Made by a program: the position numbers and the translations under genes. From contig NZ_FZOB01000013.1 in NCBI RefSeq assembly GCF_900188395.1, positions 1 to 50,095 on the forward strand: 50,095 nt of DNA. The letters run 5' to 3'. Below, one piece after another: positions 28,665 to 44,594 of the stretch (positions within the stretch are counted from its first letter, which is position 1; each line of letters begins with the position of its first letter). The stretch is from Desulfurobacterium atlanticum. Its GTDB lineage: Bacteria > Aquificota > Aquificia > Desulfurobacteriales > Desulfurobacteriaceae. Under the pieces are notes generated by a model. The model saw only the letters and a list, made by a program, of their open reading frames with translations, was not told where the DNA came from and ran no database searches.

Positions 28665-28757
28665 AACTAATTTCTCCGGGAAATATCAAACTTTTATTTA
28701 ATGTTGTGTTGTGGTAAATTATAAATGTTTGGATTATTAAAAGCAAAGGGGGAGTTT

Positions 28758-29075
28758 ATGGAGAAAGAGATGGAACTTGCCGTTAAACAGCTTGAGAAAG
28801 CAAGGGAAGAAGGGGATAAGATGGTATTTGAGATTCTTGAAGCGGTTAAAGAGCTCAGGAACATTCTTTATGAGCTTCCGGAAGAGAGCAGGGATATTGT
28901 GGCAAAGTATCTTCAGGATATAGTTGCGGCAGCCGGGAAGCAGGATGTGGTTTCACAGAGACTTGATAGGGTTAAAAAATTTCTACTTACCGGCGATAAT
29001 GAAATTGATATGCAGTGGCGGCTTGATGAGGGGAGGGTGGTTTCACAGTCTGATGTGGATAAGCTATTTAGCTAA
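28758..29075 (+). CDS. small CheZ-like protein, candidate CheY-P phosphatase
   Basis: 105 residues, all helical, soluble. ATG 28758 has AAGGGGGAG (28746-28754) upstream; an ATG at 28725 lacks this. The helix [11 protein letters not shown] contains D63-x3-Q67, the same spacing as the catalytic D143 and Q147 of E. coli CheZ (DLTGQ). The C-terminal end [11 protein letters not shown] resembles the CheY-binding tail of CheZ and the EIDALL-type CheY-binding peptide of FliM and FliY. CheZ is normally about 200 residues, so this would be a minimal form. It is the first gene of the chemotaxis-flagellar run, 17 bases before the hydrogenase-like receptor. Function is inference from motif and position. 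Confidence 0.6.
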
Positions 29076-29092: not shown

Positions 29093-31372
29093 ATGAATCA
29101 GAAACTTTCTTCAGTAGTTGGTGTAGATAGTTCCAAGTGCGTTGACTGTAATGCATGTTTAAGAGCGTGTGTTGCCAAATACTGTCACGATGTTTCTGGT
29201 GACCATCCAGAGATAAATTCTGACCTTTGCGTTGGGTGCGGAGAGTGTATAAAGGTTTGTGAGCACGGAGCCCGTTATCCAAAAGATGACTTTGATAAGT
29301 TTGTAAGGGATTTGAAGGCAGGTGTTCCTATGGTTGCTATAGTGGCGCCTGCTGTAGCTGCTGAGTTTCCAGAAGATTATTTAAGGCTTAACGGCTGGCT
29401 TAAATCTATAGGGGTAAAAGCTGTTTTTGATGTTAGCTTTGGTGCAGAGCTTTGCACTAAAACCTACATAGAGTATATAAAAGAGAAAAATCCTGATACT
29501 GTTATAGCTTCACCGTGCCCTGCACTTGTAACATACATAGAGCTTTATAGACCGGAGCTTTTAAAGTATCTTTCTCCTGTTTTAAGTCCGATGCTCTGCA
29601 CTGTTAAGTGGGTAAAAGAGTTTTTGCCAGAATATAGAAACTGTAAGGTTGTTGTTATATCTCCGTGTGTAGCTAAACGAAGAGAGTTTGATGAAGTTGG
29701 TCTTGCTGATTACAATGTTACTTTTTACTCGATTAGAAAGTTTTTTGAGAGAAGCCTTATTGATTTAAAACTGTTTCCAGAAGTTGAGTATGATAATCCA
29801 CCGGCAGAAAGAGCGGTATTTTTTCCAGAACCGGGAGGGCTTTTAAAAACGGCGGAAAGATTTATGCCCGGGATAAGAGAGAAAACGCGTAAGATAGAAG
29901 CTCCGAAAATTGTTTACAAGTATCTTGATTCCTATAAAAAATCTGTTGAAAAGGGTGTTCAGCCACTTCTTGTTGACTGTTTAAACTGTGAGTGGGGGTG
30001 TGTTGGGGGACCTGCAACAACAACAGAAGAGAGATTCACCCTTGATGAAGCTGAAAACTATATAAAAGAAAGGTTTAAAAGGCAGATTGAAAATTTAAAG
30101 AAACTTTATAAAGAGAAACCTCCTGAAAAGGCGATAGATGATATTTTAGAAGAATACTGGAGACCCGGTCTTTATGAAAGGAGCTTTAAAAATCTTCACG
30201 ATAATTTCACTTCCGAAATAAAGATTCCTACAGAGGAGCAGATTTACGACATATTCAGAAAAATGCATAAATTTTCCAAAGAGGATATTAAAAACTGCAC
30301 AGCCTGCGGTTATCCCGGGTGTAGAGAGATGGCTATTGCTATATTTAACGGTTTGAATAAAAGGGAGAACTGTATCTTTTATGAAAAATCACTCAGTATA
30401 GGGGTGGAAGAGCAGAAATCATTGGTCAGGGATCTATCTGAAGTTTATAGAGAGCTTTCAGCCAATATATGCTACAGTATGACAAAAATAGAAAAACTTA
30501 AAAACCAGGTAGATTCTTTTATTGAAAATTTCAACAAAATAAAAGAGGAGGCGGGGAAAGAGGAAGAGAATATAAATAGAATGATAGAATCCTTGCAGAA
30601 ACTTTTTGATGATATAACTGTTTTATCTGAAAGTATAGAGCGAATAAAAGAAGCATCTGCGCAAAACATTCAGGATATTATGGAGAACACTCATAAGATT
30701 ACTGGCACTATAGATATCATTGATGCGATGAGTGAGTCAACAAACAGAGCTATAAACAGAATATATGAGGTGAAGAAGAAAGCGGATGAAGTAGATTCAA
30801 TTCTTCAGACAATTTTAAACATAACACAGAAAACAAATCTACTGTCTCTTAACGCTGCAATAGAGGCAGCAAGGGCAGGAGAGGCAGGGAAAGGCTTTGC
30901 AGTTGTTGCTGATGAGGTTAGAAAACTTGCTAAGCTCTCGTCAACTGCTGCTAAAGAGATAAGTAAATTTATTGATGAGATTAAAAATGTTGTTCAGGAA
31001 ACGGTGGATGTGGCAAAAGAGACCCAGAATTTATCTAAAAAAGGCAAGGAATCCTCGCAGGTTGCCCTAAAAGCTATAGATAGTATTAAAGGCAAACTGG
31101 AAGAAACAAACAGTATGATAGAAGATATAGCTAAAATTATAGAGAGTGAAAAAGAGGAAAGTGAAAATATAAAAGAAGGTATAGAGACTGTTAAGGAAAG
31201 CACAAGGAATGTTGTTAGAGTTGTTTCTGAGCAGGAAGCTTTAACGGAAAAGATAAATCTTTATGTCGCTGCTCTTGAGGGAAGTGCCGAAGGTGTTAAA
31301 GAGGCATCTAAGAAGGTTAAAGAGAAAGTTGAAATTCTGGAAGATTGTGTTAAAAGACTTGGTGAGGAGTAG
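29093..31372 (+). CDS. soluble chemoreceptor with ferredoxin and [FeFe]-hydrogenase-like sensor domains
   Basis: 759 residues with no membrane segment. Domains: two 4Fe-4S motifs (C16, C19, C22, C26; C46, C49, C52, C56); an [FeFe]-hydrogenase large-subunit domain (about 78-330); a four-Cys Fe-S domain (C402, C405, C410, C427); then a helical linker and an MCP signalling domain whose conserved tip lies near 579-615. The four H-cluster cysteines are kept: C142 (SPCPAL), C192 (SPCVAK), C299 and C303 (NCEWGCVGG). The proton-relay Cys before C142 is replaced by Pro, as in sensory group C/D hydrogenases. It probably senses H2 or redox state and drives the CheA encoded 5 bases downstream. Confidence 0.92.
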
Positions 31373-31377
31373 CTATT

Positions 31378-33420
31378 ATGAAAATAAATATTCCACCTGA
31401 TATGCAGGAGATATTTGAGGAGTTTCTTGTTGAAGCATCAGAAATTCTTGATAACCTTGACCAGGATTTAATAGACCTTGAAAATTCTCCTGAAGATAGT
31501 GATTTGATAAACCGTATCTTTAGAGGAATGCATACTCTTAAAGGTGGAGCAGGATTTCTTAATCTTACCACTATTGTAGAGCTTGCTCATAGAATGGAAG
31601 ATATATTTAATAAGGTAAGGAACGGTGAGCTTAAAATCACCTCGGACCAGCTTGATATACTGTTTGAAGGACTTGACAGGTTAAAAGAAGCTTTGGATAT
31701 GCTTAAAGAGGAAACAGAGATACCTGATCCTGAAGATATAGATGACATTCTTAAAAAACTTGATTCTATTCTTGAGGGGGATGGAACGGCAAACTCAAGT
31801 CAAGAAAGTGTATCTGAAAGTTCTGAAAATTCTGAAGATACAAATTCTGAAAATGAAGAGAAAGCTCAGAATAAAAAGATAAAATTCAAGGCGGATGTGC
31901 CTGAAGAGTTGCGAAAACTTATAGAGAAGTATCCTGATAAAGATCTTGCTGGCCTTCTTGAAGAGATAATTCTTATGCCTCCAGAAGAAAGGCCTATGGA
32001 TATTATTCCTGTGATAGAGAAACTGATAGAGGAGGGAAAAGAAATAAAAGACTTGATTGAGGTTGAAGAGGAAAAAACAGATTTTGGATCTGGAAAAGTG
32101 GAAACTACTAAATCTGAAAGTTTACAAAATAAACCTCAGCAGGATACTCAAGAAGTTTCAACTACCAAAACTTCCAAGGAGCAAACCTCAAAAAGCCAGG
32201 CCAAATCAGTATCCAAAGAGAAGAAAAAAAGCAGTGATGTTATAAGAATTGATGTAGAAAGAATTGAGAATCTTATGAATCTTGTTGGGGAGATAGTTCT
32301 TGATAGAAACAGAATTATGAGACTTATTTCTCAGCTTGAGAAAGAAGTGCGTTCTGAAACTATAGAGCAGCTTAATGAAACTGTTATAAGTATGGACAGA
32401 ACTGTAAGTGATCTTCAGGTTGCAGTAATGAAGCTTAGAATGCAACCTATTAAAAAGATATTTTCAAAATTTCCCCGTATTGTTCGGGATTTGTCCAAAA
32501 AACTTGGTAAGAAGGTTAATCTTGTTATAGAAGGTGAAGACACAGAACTTGATAAATCAATTCTTGATAAACTTGAAGACCCTCTTATTCACCTTGTTAG
32601 AAACTCTCTTGACCACGGACTTGAAACACCTGAAGAAAGAGTGATGATGGGCAAACCTGAAGTTGGAACGATAAAACTTTTTGCTTACCATGAGGGTGAT
32701 CACATAATCATCGGTATTTCTGATGATGGAAGAGGAATAAACGTTGAGAAAGTTAAGCAGAAAGCCATAGAAAAGGGGCTTATAACTCCTGATCAGGCAA
32801 GGCAGATGAGTGATAAAGACGCTTACAGCCTTATCTTGATGCCGGGATTTTCTACTAAAGACCAGGTTACAGAGCTTTCCGGTCGTGGTGTAGGTATGGA
32901 TGTTGTTGCTTCTGTTATCTACTCTTTAAGGGGAACAATAGAGATAGACAGTGAGGAAGGTAAAGGAACAACAATAATCCTAAAACTTCCGTTAACTGTG
33001 GCAATTATAAGAACGCTTATTATAGGTGTAAACAATCAAATATTCTCAATTCCTCTTCATGCAATTATAGAGATAGTTAAGTATGAGGAGGATAAGGTAA
33101 AAAGTGTTGGTAGGTTCAAAAGTCTTGTTTTAAGGGATGAGGTTTTACCACTATTTAGTCTTAATGAGTTATTGGGTATTGAGGAGTCGGAAGATAAAAA
33201 GTTTGTTGTAGTTGTTAAGGTGGGAGAGAAGTTTATAGCTGTTGCGGTGGATAAACTTTACGGTGAGGAAGAGATAGTTATTAAGTCTATGGGTGAGCTT
33301 CTTGAAGATGTTCCGGGTATAGCTGGTGCCACTATCGCAGGTGATGGAAGAGTTATTTTAATACTTGATATCAACTCTTTACTAAGTGATATTAAAAAAC
33401 AGCTTTTAGGAGTGCTGTGA
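31378..33420 (+). CDS. cheA: chemotaxis histidine kinase CheA
   Basis: 680 residues. P1 phosphotransfer domain (1-115) with H52 in MHTLKGGAG; P3 dimerisation (about 287-350); P4 ATPase (about 355-540) with N-box HLVRNSLDHGLE, G1 DDGRGI and G2 GRGVGMD; P5 CheW-like coupling domain (541-680). Between P1 and P3 there is no recognisable P2. Instead two Ser/Thr/Glu/Lys-rich linkers flank a compact, probably helical segment at 167-232 of unknown role. It receives signals from the adjacent soluble receptors and phosphorylates CheY and CheV. Overlaps cheW by 4 bases. Confidence 0.97.
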   Translation: MKINIPPDMQEIFEEFLVEASEILDNLDQDLIDLENSPEDSDLINRIFRGMHTLKGGAGFLNLTTIVELAHRMEDIFNKVRNGELKITSDQLDILFEGLDRLKEALDMLKEETEIPDPEDIDDILKKLDSILEGDGTANSSQESVSESSENSEDTNSENEEKAQNKKIKFKADVPEELRKLIEKYPDKDLAGLLEEIILMPPEERPMDIIPVIEKLIEEGKEIKDLIEVEEEKTDFGSGKVETTKSESLQNKPQQDTQEVSTTKTSKEQTSKSQAKSVSKEKKKSSDVIRIDVERIENLMNLVGEIVLDRNRIMRLISQLEKEVRSETIEQLNETVISMDRTVSDLQVAVMKLRMQPIKKIFSKFPRIVRDLSKKLGKKVNLVIEGEDTELDKSILDKLEDPLIHLVRNSLDHGLETPEERVMMGKPEVGTIKLFAYHEGDHIIIGISDDGRGINVEKVKQKAIEKGLITPDQARQMSDKDAYSLILMPGFSTKDQVTELSGRGVGMDVVASVIYSLRGTIEIDSEEGKGTTIILKLPLTVAIIRTLIIGVNNQIFSIPLHAIIEIVKYEEDKVKSVGRFKSLVLRDEVLPLFSLNELLGIEESEDKKFVVVVKVGEKFIAVAVDKLYGEEEIVIKSMGELLEDVPGIAGATIAGDGRVILILDINSLLSDIKKQLLGVL

Positions 33421-33926
33421 TGCAAATAGAGGATGGGAAGAAAAAAGAGCTTGAGATAGAAGAGATAGTAGGAGCTACAGTTTCAAAAGAGATACAGGTT
33501 ATAGGTTTTGAGCTTGGAAGGGAGCTTGTTGGTATTCCTATAGAGGAGATTATAGAGATAACAACCGATAAGGATATAACTCCTGTTCCTAAATCCCCTG
33601 AGTTTGTTCTTGGTGTTATGAATCTAAGGGGAAAGATAGTTCCTGTAACAACTGTGAAGAAAAAGTTGGGAATTCCTGAAGAATTGCCCGAAGATATTTA
33701 TTCACGGAACAAAATAATCATTCTTGATACAGAATTTGGAGAAGTGGGTATAATAGTTGATGAGATAGTTGGTTCTATAAAGTTTTTTGAGGATGATGTT
33801 TTACCTGAACCAACAGGAACAATAGGGATAGAAATAAAGCATATTAAAGGGGTTGTTCAACTTGAAGATAATAAACTTCTTATAATCTTAAATACCAAAA
33901 CAATCTTTTCCCGGGAGGAGAGTTAA
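33417..33926 (+). CDS. cheW: chemotaxis coupling protein CheW
   Basis: 169 residues, one CheW domain joining receptors to CheA. Seen: VIGFELGRELVGIPIEEIIEI, the VPKSPEFVLGVMNLRGKIVP block that is the family hallmark, and EVGIIVDEIVGSIKFFED. About 20 extra acidic residues precede the domain. Overlaps cheA by 4 bases and directly abuts the next receptor gene. Confidence 0.97.
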   Translation: MMQIEDGKKKELEIEEIVGATVSKEIQVIGFELGRELVGIPIEEIIEITTDKDITPVPKSPEFVLGVMNLRGKIVPVTTVKKKLGIPEELPEDIYSRNKIIILDTEFGEVGIIVDEIVGSIKFFEDDVLPEPTGTIGIEIKHIKGVVQLEDNKLLIILNTKTIFSREES

Positions 33927-35825
33927 ATGTTTGGCAGTAGAGGAAGCGGAAACGGAGAGTCTGTGGTTTTTTTAAAAAAGACAATTTCAAACCTTGAAAA
34001 AGAGATAGAAAGGTTAAAAGAGCAGCTTGAAAGCTGTGAAAGAGAGAAGAAAGAGGCGCTGGATGAGGTAGAAAAAGTAAAATCTTTAGTTGAGAGTGAG
34101 AAAAGAGCTCTTGAACAGGAGATAGAACAGCTTAGAAAAGAGAAAGAGGAGATAGATAACGATCTTTACATGTATAAACAGATAGTTGATTGTTTTATGG
34201 AAGAAGCTTTCTTCCTTGCTTCACCTGAATTTAAACCCGGTAAAGCAGGAAACGAAATTATCCTTGCAAATAGAAGAGCTTTGGAGCTTGCTTCAAAGTG
34301 GAAAGATATCTTTATAAAGCAGTGGGGTGTAAATCCAGATAATATTATAGGAACATCCATTCATGTAATGCACAAAGATCCTGAAAGGGTTAAATCCCTT
34401 CTTAAAGCTTTAAGACCGGGTGAGCATCTTAAAAATGCAGATATTCCTGTAGGTCCTTATGTAATGGCTTCTTACAGACACCTTATTCTTAATAAAGATG
34501 GCTCTGTAAGGGGATATCTTGCCACATGGAAAGATGCAACTGCTGAGAGAGAAGTTAAAGAGAAGATAAGAACGACACAGCAGATGATAATTTCAAATCT
34601 TAAGGCTGCTAAAGAGAGTCTGTTTCAGGCTATAGATACTGCGGTTTCAATATCAGCCGCTTTACGTTCTATACAGCAGGTGATAAAAACTTCAGAGGAA
34701 GAATCTAAAGCTGCCAATTTCATAAAAGAGCAGATAAGGGAACTTGTTGAAATATCTGGTAAATTGAAAGTTAACTATAATAAGATTCTTGAGTTTCTTG
34801 AAGAGGCTGAGAAGAAAACGCTTTCTTCTATAGAGCAGATGAAATATATCTACTCAATTACAGGTAATTTGCAGGAGGTTGTAAGTGACCTTAAGGAGCA
34901 GACAGAACAGATAGATCAGGTGGTTGAAGTTATTACGTCTATTACCGAGCAGACGAATCTTCTTGCTCTTAACGCTGCGATAGAAGCAGCAAGAGCAGGG
35001 GAGGCAGGAAGGGGTTTTGCAGTTGTTGCTGATGAGGTTAGAAAGCTTGCAGAGAGAACCAATAAGTCTGCTGTTGAGATAAAAGAAGTTGTTAAAAATA
35101 TGCGTGAAAAGATGGCTAAGACAACAAAGATTACTGAAGAAGCTACAAAAGCTGTTAATGATGGGATGGAGATGTTTAGCAAAAACAGAGAAGTTTACTC
35201 AAATATAAAAGGAGCAGCTGAAAATACCCTTGATATAATTAATGGTCTTTTTGATGCTGTAGAGGAAGAAGAGAAGCATATTAAGATAATAGTTGAAAAA
35301 ATTAAAGATTCAGCTTCTATTGTTAAGTCGCTTGGTGAATCTATGGATGATGTTATTAAGAATTCTGAAAGAACCAAGTCGGAAATTAAAAAAGTGCTTG
35401 CCACATTTGATATGGTTGACCTTGGCGATGCGAAAGATATGATAGATATTGTAAAAGAAGTGCTTGATATTATAGAATCTGTTGAGGATAACATAAGAAA
35501 AGTGTTTGTTATGGGATTACCTGCAGATACGTTATTTATTTCAAATACCTCTTCGCTGATGAACAGGATAGGAGCTACAACTCATGTTTTCCACAGACTT
35601 ACTAAAGATTATCCTGAACTGACTTCTGTTGTAACAGAGATAGAAGAGTTACTTGAAGACCTGCTTGTTGAAACAAAAGAGATAGCTGTTGCACTTCAGG
35701 CGAAAGATTTTGAAGAAACTCTTGAAAAAGCAGAAAAACTCATAAAAGTGGCGAATGAGATAACCACTAAAGTTGTGGTCTGTATAAAAACTTTTCTTAA
35801 CTCATCTGATGGAGGCAACAGTTAA
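33927..35825 (+). CDS. soluble PAS-type methyl-accepting chemotaxis protein
   Basis: 632 residues, no membrane helix. A long N-terminal coiled coil (about 14-85), a PAS-like domain (about 86-210, with [13 protein letters not shown] and a [21 protein letters not shown]-type ending), a coiled signalling domain with the conserved tip near 341-378 ([19 protein letters not shown], then [15 protein letters not shown]), and an unusual extra helical C-terminal part (about 510-632) that I cannot assign. It lacks a CZB zinc signature and a CheR-docking pentapeptide. An internal energy or redox sensor is plausible. Its stop overlaps the cheV start by one base. Confidence 0.93.
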
Positions 35826-36808
35826 TGCCTAAAAAGAAAGAGCTTTTGCCAAAAATTCTTGAAACAGGAGCCAACGAGCTTGAGATAGTTGATTTTAGAA
35901 TGTATGAGAAGCTTGATGATGGTTCTGTTTATGAATGGGCTCTTGGAGTGAATGTTGCCAAGGTTAAAGAGGTTATATTTACCCCTCAACGACTTGCGAA
36001 AACGCCAAAGTCAATTCCTGAGGTGCTTGGTATCGCAAAGGTAAGGGAGAAAAATATTCCTCTTATTTCTCTTGCCCGCTGGATGAAGATTGAGCCTGCG
36101 GCTGAGGAAAAATATACAATTGTAATGGAATTTTTAAGAGAAACAGTAGGTATAACCATACATGAAGCTAAAAGAATTCGCCGTTTAAGATGGAATGAGA
36201 TAAAAACTCCTCCAGACAGTATGAACAATAGATTTGGCGGTAAGATAGTTGGTGTTATTGATATAGAGGATGGGAAGCTCCTACTCTTGCTTGATTTTGA
36301 GGGTATTCTTGATGAACTTGGAATGATAAAGATAATAGAAGTTTCCGAAATTCAGAAAAGAAAGCTTGGAATAACTTCTGATGAGCATTTTAAAATTCTT
36401 ATTCTTGATGATAGTTCTGTCGCAAGAAGGATTATGAAAAAGATTCTTACAGAAGATGGACATACGGTTGTGGAGGCAACAAACGGTATAGAAGGGCTTG
36501 AGATACTTTACGAGTGGCTTAAGGAAGCAAAAGCTACAGGACAGGATATTACAGATTACGTTCAGCTTATAATTTCAGATATTGAAATGCCCGGTATGGA
36601 CGGTTTAACCTTTACTAAAAAGGTGAAGGAGAATCCTGAACTTTCCAAAATACCTGTTATAATTAATACTTCACTTAGTGACCAGGCGAATATGAGTAAG
36701 AGTAAGTTTGTTGGAGCAGATGCTCATCTTGTTAAGTTTGATGCTCCGGATCTGTTAAAGTTGGTTCACAAATATGCTATAAGGAGGAATGTAGATGCCT
36801 CTACCTGA
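35825..36808 (+). CDS. cheV: chemotaxis protein CheV (CheW-receiver fusion)
   Basis: 327 residues: a CheW-like coupling domain (about 15-170, with [20 protein letters not shown]) joined to a receiver domain (about 188-320). The receiver has the acidic pair DD (195-196), the phospho-acceptor D252 in [10 protein letters not shown] and the Thr/Ser and Lys switch positions in INTSLS and LVKFD. CheV couples receptors to CheA and may act in adaptation or as a phosphate sink, which matters because no CheR/CheB is seen nearby. Overlaps cheY by 14 bases. Confidence 0.96.
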
Positions 36809-37190
36809 TCCGAATATAAAAATTTTGATAGTTGACGATATGGCTACAATGAGAAGAATAGAAAAATCTCTTCTTATGCAGCTTGGCTTTAAGAACATAG
36901 ATGAAGCTGAGGATGGAAAGGTTGCCCTGCAAAAGTTAAGGCAGGGAGATTACGATTTTGTTTTAACAGACTGGAATATGCCAAATATGACAGGACTTGA
37001 ACTTGTTCAGGAGATAAGGAAAGATCCGAAATTGAAACACTTACCTGTTTTGATGGTTACGGCAGAAGCTAAAAAAGAGAACGTTCTTGCTGCTATAAAA
37101 GCGGGAGTTAACAACTATGTGGTAAAACCGTTTACCGCGGAAACTTTGAAGGAGAAAATAGAGAAAATCTTCTCTGCTTATAAAAAGTGA
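36795..37190 (+). CDS. cheY: chemotaxis response regulator CheY
   Basis: 131-residue single receiver domain. Acidic pair D14-D15 ([10 protein letters not shown]), phospho-acceptor D59 in [13 protein letters not shown], switch Thr in [11 protein letters not shown] and Lys in YVVKPF. MATMRRI and TDWNMP are diagnostic of CheY rather than other receivers. Phosphorylated by CheA, it would bind FliM at the motor. Its partner phosphatase may be the CheZ-like protein at the start of the run. Followed after 9 bases by flgF. Confidence 0.97.
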
Positions 37191-37199
37191 GGATTAAAA

Positions 37200-37916
37200 A
37201 TGGCTGTTGATATTCAGTCTATATATATGCTGGCAAGTGGTGGAAAAAGAGCACTTGAGCAGCTTGATACTGTTTCTAACAACATTGCGAATGTAAATAC
37301 TCCTGGTTTTAAAAAGCTTCTTGAAGTTGAGATGTATCAGGATATTCCTGTTAATAGAGGGGAATCAGGTAAGCTTCTAACATTTCCCCGCTTTAGAGAA
37401 ACTCTTCCTGTCCTTTCTCAAGGTTCTCTTCAGAAAACAGATTCTCCACTTGATTTTGCAATTTCAGGAAAAGGTTTTTTTAAGGTTGAGACAAAGTCGG
37501 GAATTTTGCTTACAAGGAATGGCCATTTTCATATAGATAAAGATGGATATCTTGTTGATGCAAATGGGAATAAAGTTCTTTCAAAAGAAAACAATCCAAT
37601 AATAATTGATACAAATCAGCCTTTCAATGTTTCTTCTGACGGTAGGGTTTTACAGGGAGCTATTGAGGTAGCTGTTCTTGGTATAGAGGATTATGAAAGT
37701 GTTGAACCTGTGGGAAATAGTTATTATGTGCCTGCTGGCGATGTTAAACCTGCAGAGTATAAAGTGCTTACGGGATTTTTGGAGAGCTCAAACGTTGAGC
37801 CGATAAAAGAGATGGTCAATCTTATAGAAACACAAAGACGGTTTGAAATTTACGGTAATTTGATAAGAGGTCTTGATAGAATGAATATGAAAAGTGTGGA
37901 AATCGGGAAAGTTTAA
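37200..37916 (+). CDS. flgF: flagellar basal-body rod protein FlgF
   Basis: 238 residues with the rod/hook N-terminal motif VSNNIANVNTPGFKK, central AISGKGFFKVE and the C-terminal VNLIETQRRFEIYGNLIRG helix. It forms part of the proximal rod. It is called FlgF rather than FlgG because the next gene is the better FlgG match and the order flgF-flgG is standard. 12 bases separate the two. Confidence 0.92.
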   Translation: MAVDIQSIYMLASGGKRALEQLDTVSNNIANVNTPGFKKLLEVEMYQDIPVNRGESGKLLTFPRFRETLPVLSQGSLQKTDSPLDFAISGKGFFKVETKSGILLTRNGHFHIDKDGYLVDANGNKVLSKENNPIIIDTNQPFNVSSDGRVLQGAIEVAVLGIEDYESVEPVGNSYYVPAGDVKPAEYKVLTGFLESSNVEPIKEMVNLIETQRRFEIYGNLIRGLDRMNMKSVEIGKV

Positions 37917-37928
37917 TAAAGGGGGCGT

Positions 37929-38732
37929 ATGATGATTCGTGCACTTTGGACTTCAGCTTCAGGAATGGAAGCTCAGCAAACAAATCTTGATGTTATTTCA
38001 AATAACATAGCGAACGTTAATACTGTTGGATTTAAGCGTTCAAGGGCAAATTTTGAAGATTTGATATATCAGACAATAAGAGATCCGGGCACTATGAGTT
38101 CTGACGAAACTATGATTCCTTCAGGGATACAAATAGGGCTTGGAGTTAAACTTTCTGATACAAGTAAGATTTTCACACAGGGTAGTTTAATAAAGACTGA
38201 TAAACAGTTTGACATAGCCATTCAGGGAGGAGGTTTCTTTAAGATAGAACTTCCAGGCGGTGGAGAAGCATACACAAGAGCCGGCAATTTCCAGGTTGAC
38301 AGTGAAGGTTATCTTGTAACACCTGAAGGCTATAGGTTAAGTCCGAATATTCAGATTTCTTCACCTGAAACTGTGATAAACGTTTCTATAAGTCCTGGTG
38401 GGAGCGTGTATGTTATAAGAAACAGTGGCGGTCAGCAAACGGTAGAAGAAGTCGGAAAAATAAAGCTTTATAAATTTATTAACCCGGCAGGTCTTAAATC
38501 TTTAGGTGGAAATCTTTATGCTGTTACTGATGCTTCAGGTGAACCTGTGGAAGGTGATCCGAATACTGATGGATTTGGCAGGCTTGCTCAGGGGTTCTTG
38601 GAAGCTTCAAATGTTAATATAGTTGAAGAGATGGTTAATCTTATAGTTGCTCAAAGAGCTTATGAAATAAACTCAAAAGGGATAACTACTGCTGATGAGA
38701 TGTTAAGGGTTGTCAGTGGACTTAAGGCTTAG
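37929..38732 (+). CDS. flgG: flagellar distal rod protein FlgG
   Basis: 267 residues. The N-terminus IRALWTSASGMEAQQTNLDV then ISNNIANVNTVGFKR is almost invariant in FlgG; AIQGGGFFKIELPGG, FLEASNVNIVEEMVNLIVAQ and RAYEINSKGI complete the signature. Two ATG codons in tandem (37929 and 37932) follow GGGGGC. It builds the distal rod in the periplasm and is exported by the type III apparatus that includes FlhA. Confidence 0.97.
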   Translation: MMIRALWTSASGMEAQQTNLDVISNNIANVNTVGFKRSRANFEDLIYQTIRDPGTMSSDETMIPSGIQIGLGVKLSDTSKIFTQGSLIKTDKQFDIAIQGGGFFKIELPGGGEAYTRAGNFQVDSEGYLVTPEGYRLSPNIQISSPETVINVSISPGGSVYVIRNSGGQQTVEEVGKIKLYKFINPAGLKSLGGNLYAVTDASGEPVEGDPNTDGFGRLAQGFLEASNVNIVEEMVNLIVAQRAYEINSKGITTADEMLRVVSGLKA

Positions 38733-38755
38733 AATGACTTTTAGAAGGGGTTGTT

Positions 38756-39409
38756 TTGCGTATTTTCTTTAAAACGCTATTTTTTACTGTTTTGTTTGTA
38801 TCTGTTGCCTGTGGCAAAACTTTAAAAGATTTCATGAAAACTTACGTTGAAAAGCAGTATCCTGAGTATAAAGTTTTAAGAGTTAGTGCTCCAAATTTAC
38901 AGGTGGATGAGAAATCTAAATTTAAAGTATCTCTTGAATCTTCCGATAGGTATTATTTAAGGTTTAAGGTTTTCGGATATTTTAACGGCAAGGAAGAAGT
39001 TGTTCCTGTTAGTGTAAGAGTTGTAAAGTTAAAGAACGTTGTTGTTGCTGCAAAAGATATTTTGCCGGGAGAGCTTATTACGAAAGATCTGTTAAAACTT
39101 AAAAGGGTTTCAGAATTTAAGGCAGGAAACGCTTTTTCGTCTATTAATGAAGTTTCTGGGAAAAGGGCGAAAAGGCTCATAAAGAGTGAGAGAATCATAA
39201 AATTTACTGATGTTGAACCTGATTATAAAGTTTTTAAGAACACTCCTGTTAAAGTGGTTTATGAAAGTGGAGCAATAAGAATAGAGATGATGGGATTGGC
39301 TCTTCAAAATGGAGCCTTAGGGGATATAATAGAGGTGAAAAATATATCTACAGGGAAAAAGATACTATGCAAAGTTGTAGGAAATGGCGTTGTGAAATTT
39401 ATGCATTAG
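38756..39409 (+). CDS. flgA: flagellar P-ring assembly chaperone FlgA
   Basis: 217 residues with a signal peptide (RIFFKTLFFTVLFVSVACG) and a SAF domain: VVVAAKDILPGELITKDLL, then KRLIKSERIIKFTDVEPD. The C-terminal part (AIRIEMMGLALQNGALGDII and VKNISTGKKILCKVVGNG) is typical of FlgA. It is a periplasmic chaperone for FlgI. The start is TTG 38756 with GAAGGGG 5 bases upstream. It overlaps flgH by 43 bases. Confidence 0.93.
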   Translation: MRIFFKTLFFTVLFVSVACGKTLKDFMKTYVEKQYPEYKVLRVSAPNLQVDEKSKFKVSLESSDRYYLRFKVFGYFNGKEEVVPVSVRVVKLKNVVVAAKDILPGELITKDLLKLKRVSEFKAGNAFSSINEVSGKRAKRLIKSERIIKFTDVEPDYKVFKNTPVKVVYESGAIRIEMMGLALQNGALGDIIEVKNISTGKKILCKVVGNGVVKFMH

Positions 39410-40062
39410 TAGTTTTTCTATTTTTTTTCTCAGGATGTAGTTCATCTCAAAGGAGAAAAGAGGTTGTTGTTAAACCTCCGCCTCCACCTCCGGTTGAGGT
39501 TGCAAAGCCTGTTTCCAAAGGGTCTCTTTACACAGGTTATGACAATCTGTTTTCAGACCCGAAAGCTCATCAGGTTGGGGATATTATCACGATAAAGGTT
39601 GTTGAGTCTCTTTCAGGTGAAGGAAGCTCTTCAAATTCTGTAGGCAAGCAAACGCAGATGGGTATTGACCTTCAATCTCCTACTATTCTTGGGAAGAAAA
39701 TACCTGGAGATAGTCTTAATCCTTTGCTTGGATTTCAGGCTAATCCTCAAAGCAGTTTTTCCGGTCAGGGTGCAACTAAAAGAAATACAAAACTTATTGC
39801 AACTATTACTGCACGGGTAACAAAAGTTTATCCTAATGGAAACCTTTATATAGAAGGAGAGAAGGTTATAAGGATTAATGATGATGTTCAGATTTTAAAA
39901 ATTTCAGGAATGATAAGCCCTACAGATATAGAGCAGGATAACTCTATATCTTCTTCTAAGATTTCCGATATGTATGTAGAATATAACGGCAAAGGTTTCT
40001 GGGCTGAAAGTCAAAGGCCCGGCTGGCTTGCAAGATTTCTTATGAAGATATGGCCGTTTTGA
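39367..40062 (+). CDS. flgH: flagellar L-ring protein FlgH
   Basis: 231-residue outer-membrane lipoprotein forming the L-ring. Lipobox FFSGC near 20-25, Pro-rich linker (KPPPPPPVEV), then SLYTGYDNLFSDPKAHQVGD, IITIKVVESLSGEGSSSN, and the ending DMYVEYNGKGFWAESQRPGW typical of FlgH. It starts inside flgA in another frame. Its presence confirms a diderm envelope. Confidence 0.96.
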   Translation: MQSCRKWRCEIYALVVFLFFFSGCSSSQRRKEVVVKPPPPPPVEVAKPVSKGSLYTGYDNLFSDPKAHQVGDIITIKVVESLSGEGSSSNSVGKQTQMGIDLQSPTILGKKIPGDSLNPLLGFQANPQSSFSGQGATKRNTKLIATITARVTKVYPNGNLYIEGEKVIRINDDVQILKISGMISPTDIEQDNSISSSKISDMYVEYNGKGFWAESQRPGWLARFLMKIWPF

Positions 40063-40070
40063 GGTGTTTT

Positions 40071-41171
40071 ATGGTTAAAAGATTTTTCTGTTTTTTTGTG
40101 TTGCTGTTTTTTATTTTTGTTTCAAATGCAGAGGCGGTTTTAACAAAGATAGGAACAGAGGTTAATATAGAAGGAGTAAGACCAAACTTTCTTACCGGTT
40201 ATGGGATAGTTGTGGGACTTGATGGAACAGGTGATGGTTCTTCAAGTGTTTTTACACTTCAGAGTGTTTCAAATATGTTAAGAAAGATGGGAATTTATGT
40301 TGACCCTAAAAAGGTAAAAACGAAAAATGCTGCTGCTGTTATAGTTACTGCAAAACTTCCTCCTTTCGCAAAGCCAGGGATGACTTTTGATGTTAATGTG
40401 GCTTCTATAGGGGATGCGAAAGATTTATCAAACGGAATTTTAATAAGAACACCCCTTCTTGGTCCTGACGGAAAGATTTACGCTTTTGCTCAGGGTCCTG
40501 TTTCCACAGGTGGAGGATATTCTGAATCTAACAAAGGTGGAAAGGTGAAGAAGAATTTTCCAACTACCGGTATTATTCCGTCAGGCGGGATAGTTGAGAG
40601 AGGGTTGCCTTTTTCACTGGCAAATGAGAATGAGATTGTGCTAACTTTAAAACATCCTTCTTTTACGCTTGCGTCAACGATAGCTGATGCTATCAATAGT
40701 CAGTTTGGTAAGGGTGTTGCTTATGCTGTTGATTCTTCAACGGTAAAGGTTCTTTTCCCTGCAGGAGTGGATAAGGTTAGTTTTATCTCTCAGATTCTTA
40801 ATCTTCCAATAGAAACAAAACCAGAACCTGTTGTTGTTATATATGAAAGGACAGGAACAGTTATAATGAGCGGAGATATAAAGATAGATCCGCCTGTTTA
40901 TGTTGCTCACGGCAATATTTATGTGTCTGTTATGAAAAAGCCTGAAGTTTCTCAGCCACCGCCACTTTCAGGTGGAAATACAACAGTTACAGAGAATGTA
41001 ACTATAACCGTTAAAGAGGAGAAAGGAAGGATTTTCGGTGTTCAATCTGCAAATTTAAGAGATCTTGTTAAGGCACTTAATGACCTTGGAGTTTCTCCGA
41101 GAGATTTGATAGCTATTATTCAGGCGATAAAAGCTGCCGGTAAACTTCATGCTAAAATAGTTGTTATGTGA
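40071..41171 (+). CDS. flgI: flagellar P-ring protein FlgI
   Basis: 366 residues from ATG 40071, with GAGGTG just upstream; an ATG at 40050 would overlap flgH and lacks this. Signal peptide (VKRFFCFFVLLFFIFVSNAEA), then IGTEVNIEGVRPNFLTGYGI, VVGLDGTGDGSSSVFTLQSV, FDVNVASIGDAKDLSNGILI and the C-terminal LNDLGVSPRDLIAIIQAIKA block. All are standard FlgI features. Forms the periplasmic P-ring with help of FlgA. Confidence 0.97.
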   Translation: MVKRFFCFFVLLFFIFVSNAEAVLTKIGTEVNIEGVRPNFLTGYGIVVGLDGTGDGSSSVFTLQSVSNMLRKMGIYVDPKKVKTKNAAAVIVTAKLPPFAKPGMTFDVNVASIGDAKDLSNGILIRTPLLGPDGKIYAFAQGPVSTGGGYSESNKGGKVKKNFPTTGIIPSGGIVERGLPFSLANENEIVLTLKHPSFTLASTIADAINSQFGKGVAYAVDSSTVKVLFPAGVDKVSFISQILNLPIETKPEPVVVIYERTGTVIMSGDIKIDPPVYVAHGNIYVSVMKKPEVSQPPPLSGGNTTVTENVTITVKEEKGRIFGVQSANLRDLVKALNDLGVSPRDLIAIIQAIKAAGKLHAKIVVM

Positions 41172-41185
41172 TTTTGGAGTGTGCT

Positions 41186-41473
41186 ATGGAAAATATTAAA
41201 CTTATTCCTTACTGGGATGTTAAAGGGATAGAAAGCATAAAGAATGAAAAGGATGTAGCCAAAGAGTTTGAAGCTACATTTTTGAGAATCCTTTTGAAAG
41301 AGATGAGAAAGGGGATTCCTGAAAGTGGCCTTTTTTCATCTTTCTCAGATAAAATGTATCTTGATATGTTTGATATGACAGTTGCAAAGACGCTTGCATC
41401 TTCAGATAGGCTTGGTTTATCAGATTATATTGAACAGGCTTTAAAAGCTTACGGAAAGGCAGAGGATTTATGA
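41186..41473 (+). CDS. flgJ: FlgJ-like rod-binding protein, no muramidase domain
   Basis: 95 residues from ATG 41186 with TGGAGTG upstream; a GTG at 41168 is an alternative. The core KEFEATFLRILLKEMRKGIP, with FSDKMYLDMFDMTVAKTLAS after it, matches the FlgJ N-terminal rod-cap domain. The C-terminal glucosaminidase domain of enterobacterial FlgJ is absent, so a separate wall hydrolase must open the peptidoglycan. It overlaps flhA by 4 bases. Confidence 0.9.
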   Translation: MENIKLIPYWDVKGIESIKNEKDVAKEFEATFLRILLKEMRKGIPESGLFSSFSDKMYLDMFDMTVAKTLASSDRLGLSDYIEQALKAYGKAEDL

Positions 41474-43592: not shown

Positions 43593-44594
43593 TTATTGGC
43601 TGTTTAAAAAAACGGGCTTTATTTCATCAACAAAAGCATATTCATAATACCAGCCGTTAGCTTTTACCAGCAAATCGATGTTAACATAGCCCCCGGAAGA
43701 TCTAATTGGTATAGTAAAGGTGTGCCAACCAAGTCCGTTAATTAAACTTTTTATTTTTTCTTTTCCATTCACCTTAAGGATCATAACCCAATTGCCGTTT
43801 CTGTTACCTGCCACTTTAAGCTTTATAGCTTTGGTATTTGCCGGGAATCTACATTTCAAATGAGCTGGTTCGGTAGTTGATACAGGATGCAGATAGAAAG
43901 CTCCTCCGTTTCCGCCGGGAGGAGGCATAGCATCACCGATTTGCCTTATTCTCGGTTTCCATCCGAAGTGTTCACTACTATTGTAAATTGGTGTTGGTAT
44001 GTTTTTCACAATACTACAGTAGTTTACCCATCTTTCGGTATGTTTTCTTTCTTTTAGTTGTTGCGGTCTGGCAGGAGTAGGTTTTATTTCATCAATAAAA
44101 GCATACTCATAATACCAGCCGTTAGCTTTAACAAATAGATCCACAATTACCGGTTTATTTCGAGAGTTAACAGGAATAGTAAAAGTATGCCATTTTCTCC
44201 CATTTATAGTGGCTGTTTTAACAGTTTCTCCATTCACCTTAAGGATCATGATCCAATCGCCGTTTCTATTACCTGCCACTTTAAGCTTTACAGCTTTAGT
44301 ATTTGCCGGGAATCTACATTTCAGATGAGCTGGTTCGGTAGTTGATACAGGATGCAGATAGAAAGCTCCTCCGTTTCCACCGGGAGGAGGCATAGCATCA
44401 CCGATTTGCCTTATTCTCGGTTTCCATCCGAAATGTTCACTACTATTGTAAATTGGTGTTGGTATGTTTTTCACAATACTACAGTAGTTTGCCCATCTTT
44501 CGGTATAGGCAAAAGATGATGTAGATAAAAAGAGTGTTGATAGAAATGCAAATAAAAAAAACAGAATGAGCCGAGTATTTTTCCTGTAGAACAT
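43593..44594 (-). CDS. secreted protein of two nearly identical halves, unknown
   Basis: 333 residues. Signal peptide 1-29 (ending STSSFA), then two copies of a roughly 140-residue unit (about 30-172 and 185-328) joined by a basic linker. Each unit starts TERWxNYCSIVKNIPTPIYN, continues with GWKPRIRQIGDAMPPPGGNG and LHPVSTTEPAHLKCRFPANT, and ends VKANGWYYEYAFxDEIKP. The alternating beta pattern and paired Cys suggest a jelly-roll carbohydrate-binding-like domain, but I do not recognise a family. It lies just after the motility run and divergent from an orphan lipoprotein. SD AAAGGAGGGAG precedes the ATG. Confidence 0.85.
   Translation of the reverse strand: MFYRKNTRLILFFLFAFLSTLFLSTSSFAYTERWANYCSIVKNIPTPIYNSSEHFGWKPRIRQIGDAMPPPGGNGGAFYLHPVSTTEPAHLKCRFPANTKAVKLKVAGNRNGDWIMILKVNGETVKTATINGRKWHTFTIPVNSRNKPVIVDLFVKANGWYYEYAFIDEIKPTPARPQQLKERKHTERWVNYCSIVKNIPTPIYNSSEHFGWKPRIRQIGDAMPPPGGNGGAFYLHPVSTTEPAHLKCRFPANTKAIKLKVAGNRNGNWVMILKVNGKEKIKSLINGLGWHTFTIPIRSSGGYVNIDLLVKANGWYYEYAFVDEIKPVFLNSQ
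43765..44040. repeat. direct repeat, copy A (second half of the secreted protein)
   Basis: 276 bp repeated at 44230-44505 with an offset of 465 bp (155 codons). By eye I count about ten differences, all of them transitions, so about 96% identity. Outside this block the two halves diverge. Confidence 0.9.
44230..44505. repeat. direct repeat, copy B (first half of the secreted protein)
   Basis: Partner of 43765-44040. Sharp edges to the high-identity block inside a longer, more diverged duplication suggest gene conversion rather than one very recent duplication. Confidence 0.9.

Follow-up and report, generated by a model that had tools for sequence, protein, structure and literature searches.

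A 50,095-nucleotide stretch of Desulfurobacterium atlanticum DNA (the window; its genome is termed G000) encodes HydMCP, a protein in which an [FeFe]-hydrogenase-type module serves as the input domain of a chemoreceptor. With moderate confidence, we propose that HydMCP is a cytosolic chemoreceptor that senses H2 via this module and steers the flagella through the only CheA of the genome. The architecture is not new, as its kind is already catalogued in other bacteria. Specific to this case are its place between a cheZ-like gene and cheA, a genome with one CheA and neither CheR nor CheB, congeners lacking the gene, and a suggested domain swap.

Domains and conserved residues of HydMCP

The earlier note had described a soluble protein of 759 residues containing two ferredoxin motifs, an H-cluster domain (H-domain), a four-Cys Fe-S domain, and an MCP domain, and we found all of these features using the open reading frame, Pfam, and hydropathy analysis (Table 1). 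No transmembrane-like segment was detected in HydMCP, whose best 19-residue hydropathy mean (1.56) lies within the H-domain core, and Pfam gave no PAS match. Read over this interval, the opposite strand contains many stops. In the AlphaFold2 model, which is of the monomer only, the globular half mostly exceeds a pLDDT of 90 and the coiled coil lies at ~40-80. Foldseek recognized the hydrogenase fold in this model, with a best E of 1.4e-17 (8zqd) and many CpI/DdHydAB entries. The conserved signalling hairpin and its tip identify HydMCP as a member of the chemoreceptor (MCP) superfamily.

Table 1 Features of HydMCP and of the surrounding operon (positions in the window).
Feature	Positions	Strand	Evidence
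HydMCP, 759-aa soluble chemoreceptor, [FeFe]-hydrogenase-type input	29093..31372	+	ORF (ATG start), Pfam, 87% identical orthologue
Two [4Fe-4S] ferredoxin motifs (F-clusters), C16-C19-C22-C26 and C46-C49-C52-C56	29123..29272	+	Fer4-type Pfam matches, residues 11-61
H-cluster domain, residues 79-307	29327..30013	+	Pfam Fe_hyd_lg_C, E 2e-34; Foldseek
C-terminal cluster motif Cx2Cx4Cx16C, C402/C405/C410/C427	30296..30373	+	Pfam FeS PF04060, residues 401-429, E 4e-8
Signalling helical hairpin, helix from residue 428	30374..31369	+	AlphaFold2 model
MCPsignal domain, residues 552-702	30746..31198	+	Pfam, E 3e-33, 115 bits
MCP hairpin tip (CheA/CheW contact zone)	30821..30931	+	33/37 residues identical to tip of receptor 33927-35825
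Short CheZ-like protein, 116 aa, 17 bp upstream of HydMCP	28725..29075	+	Pfam CheZ on longer homologue, blastp
CheA, 5 bp downstream of HydMCP, the genome's only CheA	31378..33420	+	
CheW	33417..33926	+	
Second MCP, input domain without Pfam name, conserved in family	33927..35825	+	
CheV (CheW-like domain and receiver)	35825..36808	+	
CheY-like receiver	36795..37190	+	
Flagellar genes: FlgF-like, FlgG-like, FlgA, FlgH, then FlgI-like, FlgJ-like	37200..41473	+	last two from reading alone

We aligned 33 fused homologues spanning Aquificota, Spirochaetota, and Clostridia. The eight ferredoxin Cys, the H-cluster Cys C142, C192, C299, and C303 of the L1, L2, and L3 motifs, together with K195, E198, and C402/C405/C410/C427, are invariant among them, as are P141 (at the place of the proton-relay C299 of CpI), S190 (M353), and L297 (M497). 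The H-cluster cysteines thus stand where the earlier note had put them, and the ligands needed to bind the cofactor, whose loss it considered fatal to a hydrogenase-type sensor, are all kept. That note had also read the relay Cys as replaced by Pro, as in group C/D enzymes. The replacement is real, with the addition that characterized group C/D enzymes mostly carry Ala and that Pro occurs in ~10% of the HydDB sensory sequences (PMC10055695). Pro is found at this position in nearly all MCP-fused homologues of Spirochaetota and Clostridia, and from the alignments it appears to be the fixed state of the MCP-linked clade. The Cx2Cx4Cx16C motif is known from sensory hydrogenases of the M2e and M2f types (PMC8163306). 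Judged by its sequence, HydMCP is a sensory-type [FeFe]-hydrogenase-like protein.

HydMCP shares 87% identity with its orthologue in G003, a second Desulfurobacterium genome, with a dN of 0.08, a dS of ~1.3, and an overall dN/dS of ~0.06, indicating a real gene under strong purifying selection. With values of 0.012 for the FeS domain, 0.038 for the H-domain (dN/dS ~0.035), and 0.043 for the MCP tip, dN was lowest in these three parts and higher in the coiled-coil arms, so both the sensor and the CheA/CheW contact are kept.

Several known systems resemble HydMCP in part. Soluble energy-taxis receptors (Aer-type, PAS-MCPs) share a redox-linked input to CheA, but they use a flavin or heme PAS domain where HydMCP has an H-cluster and Fe-S clusters. 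Compared by the group's definition, HydMCP resembles [FeFe] group C2 of HydDB, termed 'Chemotactic (putative)', as its hydrogenase part and MCP lie in the same polypeptide; H2 sensing through MCPs was proposed for this group, the role being a guess (PMC5037454). HydMCP departs from it as an Aquificota member located in the sole flagellar che operon. The group D enzyme TamHydS (M2e; PMC8163306, PMC10407848) has the same accessory clusters and Cx2Cx4Cx16C motif, likewise lacks PAS, and carries Ser and Leu at the M353 and M497 positions, respectively. However, TamHydS possesses Ala at C299, Glu252/Glu289, and no MCP domain, whereas HydMCP has Pro141, Val242, and Asp295. In a motif alignment with PMC10407848 as source, E252 and E289 of the group D proton path correspond to V242 and D295, and for this reason membership of group D was rejected and H2 reactivity is not simply transferable from TamHydS. 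Group-D-like sequences also fall outside the sensor-half clade of HydMCP. The group C enzyme TmHydS (M2f; PMC10055695) is likewise a sensory hydrogenase with a C-terminal cluster before its output, but it contains a PAS domain and Ala131, whereas in HydMCP the cluster joins the signalling helix directly. A PAS domain after the C-terminal cluster, a mark of the TmHydS type, is absent from HydMCP.

Operon, chemotaxis machinery, and maturases

The genome encodes one CheA and three MCP genes, along with CheW, CheV, and CheY. Genome-wide statements on G000 rest on targeted family searches, and these returned no CheR or CheB at an estimated completeness of 99.7%; the published T. ammonificans genome likewise lacks cheR (PMC5441870). 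A consensus methylation site was not found in HydMCP either, suggesting that this "methyl-accepting" receptor is probably unmethylated. The pathway, with CheV and a CheZ-like phosphatase, probably works without methylation, a step that we infer. Methylation is not required of every chemoreceptor. The CheZ assignment relies on a Pfam CheZ match of E 0.0014, below the curated cut-off, to a longer homologue, and on a blastp match between the short and long forms (E 2e-4). The gene occupies the same place in all congeners. Its product has ~112-123 aa in Desulfurobacterium and ~180-190 aa in the other genera of the family, and it contains a D-V-V-S-Q stretch resembling the catalytic D...Q of CheZ.

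The tips of HydMCP and of the receptor at 33927-35825 are nearly identical, as expected if both receptors bind the same CheA and CheW; at the nucleotide level they form a 110-nt repeat of 84%. Identical residues use the same codon in 20/33 cases between the two tips, not clearly above the 17/37 for the HydMCP orthologue pair. Gene conversion between these tips was rejected, as an ultra-conserved tip explains the repeat. The N-terminal region of the receptor at 33927-35825 is uncharacterized and possibly PAS-like. Further along, on the minus strand (43593-44594), the window encodes a secreted-looking protein with two nearly identical repeats of ~150 residues each.

The earlier note regarded the absence of all H-cluster maturases as decisive against a hydrogenase-type sensor. 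HydG (507 bits) and HydE (269 bits) both exceed their curated cut-offs in G000, and an ORF adjoining HydG was identified by reading as a HydF-like GTPase; the three genes form one cluster together with an [FeFe]-hydrogenase. The genome holds two [FeFe]-hydrogenases besides HydMCP. These metabolic enzymes account for the maturases, which hence do not prove that HydMCP is loaded.

Distribution and origin of the two halves

In G003 the gene lies at the same operon place. Two congeners (G001 and G002) have the same operon, with the cheZ-like gene followed directly by cheA and without HydMCP, and both contain [FeFe]-hydrogenases, which counts against the H2 reading. Nor does this place hold HydMCP in another five genomes, which represent four more genera of the family and order. 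When 101 relatives were searched for a full-length orthologue, the only one retrieved was that of G003. The simplest reading is one gain in the G000/G003 line, the alternative being loss in the others. The GC content of HydMCP (0.36-0.40) gives no clear foreign signature against its surroundings (~0.35-0.39), and no relatives were found in viral contigs.

Beyond the family, the same fusion is widespread. Strong matches to the sensor half (E below 1e-60) were obtained in 45/198 sampled Spirochaetota genomes, and an MCPsignal domain is present in all 33 aligned proteins, 31 of them from spirochaetes. Matches were also found in 94/398 genomes of a Clostridia-centred sample; among the best 30 of these matches, 16 are fused to an MCP, and others have a histidine kinase, a sigma-54 activator, or GGDEF as their output. 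Acetoanaerobium noterae, whose row was not used in the structure prediction, shows a domain order identical to that of HydMCP. The earlier note had proposed a search for this domain order, and the rarity of MCP linkage which it implied is not supported, in view of these fusions and of HydDB group C2. The MCP, kinase, sigma-54, and GGDEF partners mark the sensor half as a module with interchangeable outputs. Individual Clostridia rows (L163, L168, L175, L181) combine a Pro-type H-domain with a histidine kinase, PAS plus a sigma-54 activator, or a GGDEF diguanylate cyclase. At two other loci of that sample (L159 and L161; G429 and G459), a TamHydS-like sensory hydrogenase with SSACPA, GGES, and FIE..xC motifs lies beside an MCP-fused one, and the two sensors may work together.

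Treponema and other Spirochaetota have MCP-fused proteins (L039-L045, L126-L154) that match HydMCP in domain order and in the P-C-P, S-P-C, and L-N-C...C signatures, the best of these proteins reaching 44-51% identity over the sensor half. The MCP half of the spirochaete proteins, in contrast, is of a different type with differing hairpin lengths. The hairpin arms have 160 and 172 residues in HydMCP vs mostly 131-134 and ~130-140 in the spirochaete proteins, although the cluster-to-tip length is 161 in three long spirochaete forms. Hydrogen sensors of termite-gut treponemes were reportedly treated by Ballor et al. in 2012, a work that PMC4070709 cites.

Trees of the two halves gave different placements. 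In the sensor-half tree, HydMCP lies within a clade of 41 sequences that otherwise comprises spirochaetes and two Clostridia-centred rows (support 100/99). With respect to the comparison with groups A-D proposed in the earlier note, this clade is all-sensory and separate from the rows of A/B, C3-like, and D-like type. The MCP tree places the hairpins of the spirochaete fusions in a clade of their own (100/99), with the Desulfurobacterium pair outside. The nesting of only the sensor half with spirochaete homologues suggests a domain swap, which we regard as a lead that is not proven: constraining the Desulfurobacterium and spirochaete MCP halves together was not quite rejected (AU p=0.059). A native Aquificota origin of this half was considered when it clustered with Aquificota MCPs in an initial tree (92/86), and was rejected once the addition of other phyla left it unplaced; only its difference from the spirochaete fusions is retained, at the AU value given. 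Our tentative scenario, rather doubtful as a whole, is that Desulfurobacterium acquired a spirochaete-type H2-sensor module horizontally, that the module was joined to a different MCP hairpin, and that its insertion between cheZ and cheA gave rise to a methylation-free, membrane-free H2-taxis receptor.

A proposed route from hydrogen to the flagellum

The earlier note had the sensor plug directly into CheA; this holds insofar as the module is joined to a complete MCP domain and the single CheA is the next gene. We propose that apo-HydMCP would be matured by the HydEFG machinery of the two metabolic [FeFe]-hydrogenases, and that H2 would then be split slowly at the H-cluster. With Pro at the relay position, low turnover is expected and the reduced state should persist. 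Group C and D sensory hydrogenases do react with H2, with low turnover and a stabilized reduced state (PMC8163306, PMC10055695). From there, electrons would reach the F-clusters as well as the C-terminal [4Fe-4S] cluster, and a resulting change in the charge or geometry of the latter would shift the coiled coil and alter CheA activity. In the AlphaFold2 model, C427, which is the final ligand of this cluster, immediately precedes a continuous helix starting at residue 428, so a change in the cluster could act directly on the helix with no PAS between them. CheV and the CheZ-like protein would terminate the signal without methylation. Desulfurobacterium is a heat-loving vent bacterium. Vent autotrophs of this kind use H2 as their main electron donor, so the expected response is attraction.

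The evidence does not separate H2 taxis from redox taxis, and either assignment is one that we infer. There is an appreciable chance, well short of even, that HydMCP is a general redox (energy-taxis) sensor, in which the F- and C-terminal clusters take electrons from reduced ferredoxin or from other donors, the H-cluster acts as an electron sink or for tuning, and H2 is not the natural stimulus. Three accessory [4Fe-4S] clusters ahead of the signalling helix would suit such a role, as would the relay Pro of all 33 homologues, which suggests little need for turnover, and the use of the same module to drive kinases, sigma-54 activators, and GGDEF proteins in Clostridia. However, a plain Fe-S sensor would not need the strict retention of the H-cluster ligands, K195, and E198 across Aquificota, Spirochaetota, and Clostridia.

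The remaining readings carry less weight. H-clusters bind CO and O2, and an avoidance receptor would fit soluble Fe-S chemistry, such that HydMCP might sense a poison or other ligand of the H-cluster (CO, O2, sulfide) as a repellent instead of H2; this is improbable, as studied sensory hydrogenases show raised CO tolerance (PMC8163306) and the evidence favors no particular ligand. Because the maturases serve other clients in G000, one can also imagine an H-domain without the [2Fe] subcluster in vivo, HydMCP being an Fe-S cluster scaffold or a vestigial sensor, yet the strong constraint on the H-domain and the retention of all ligands make this very improbable. Elsewhere among bacteria, MCPs may feed alternative pathways, but a non-flagellar pathway is scarcely credible here: the genome's one CheA gene comes directly after that of HydMCP, and the operon that they share runs into flagellar genes.

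For the preferred reading, that of an H2-sensing chemoreceptor, the interest lies in the output. The papers searched contained no experiment on an MCP-linked [FeFe] protein, and even HydS proteins that have been studied well are credited with no more than a putative sensory role (PMC8924675). The physiological signal of sensory [FeFe]-hydrogenases still carries that label despite years of biochemistry. Here the output is unusually easy to read: the genome has a flagellum, a single CheA, and three MCP genes but no methylation loop, and the gene is present in some congeners and missing from others. A swimming bias would directly tell if H2 is sensed by an H-cluster protein in a living cell. The direct junction from cluster to helix would offer a minimal model for an Fe-S cluster driving a chemoreceptor. 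If the proposed acquisition is true, a sensor module was re-plugged into a resident chemotaxis machine, for which the sister species without the gene would be natural controls.
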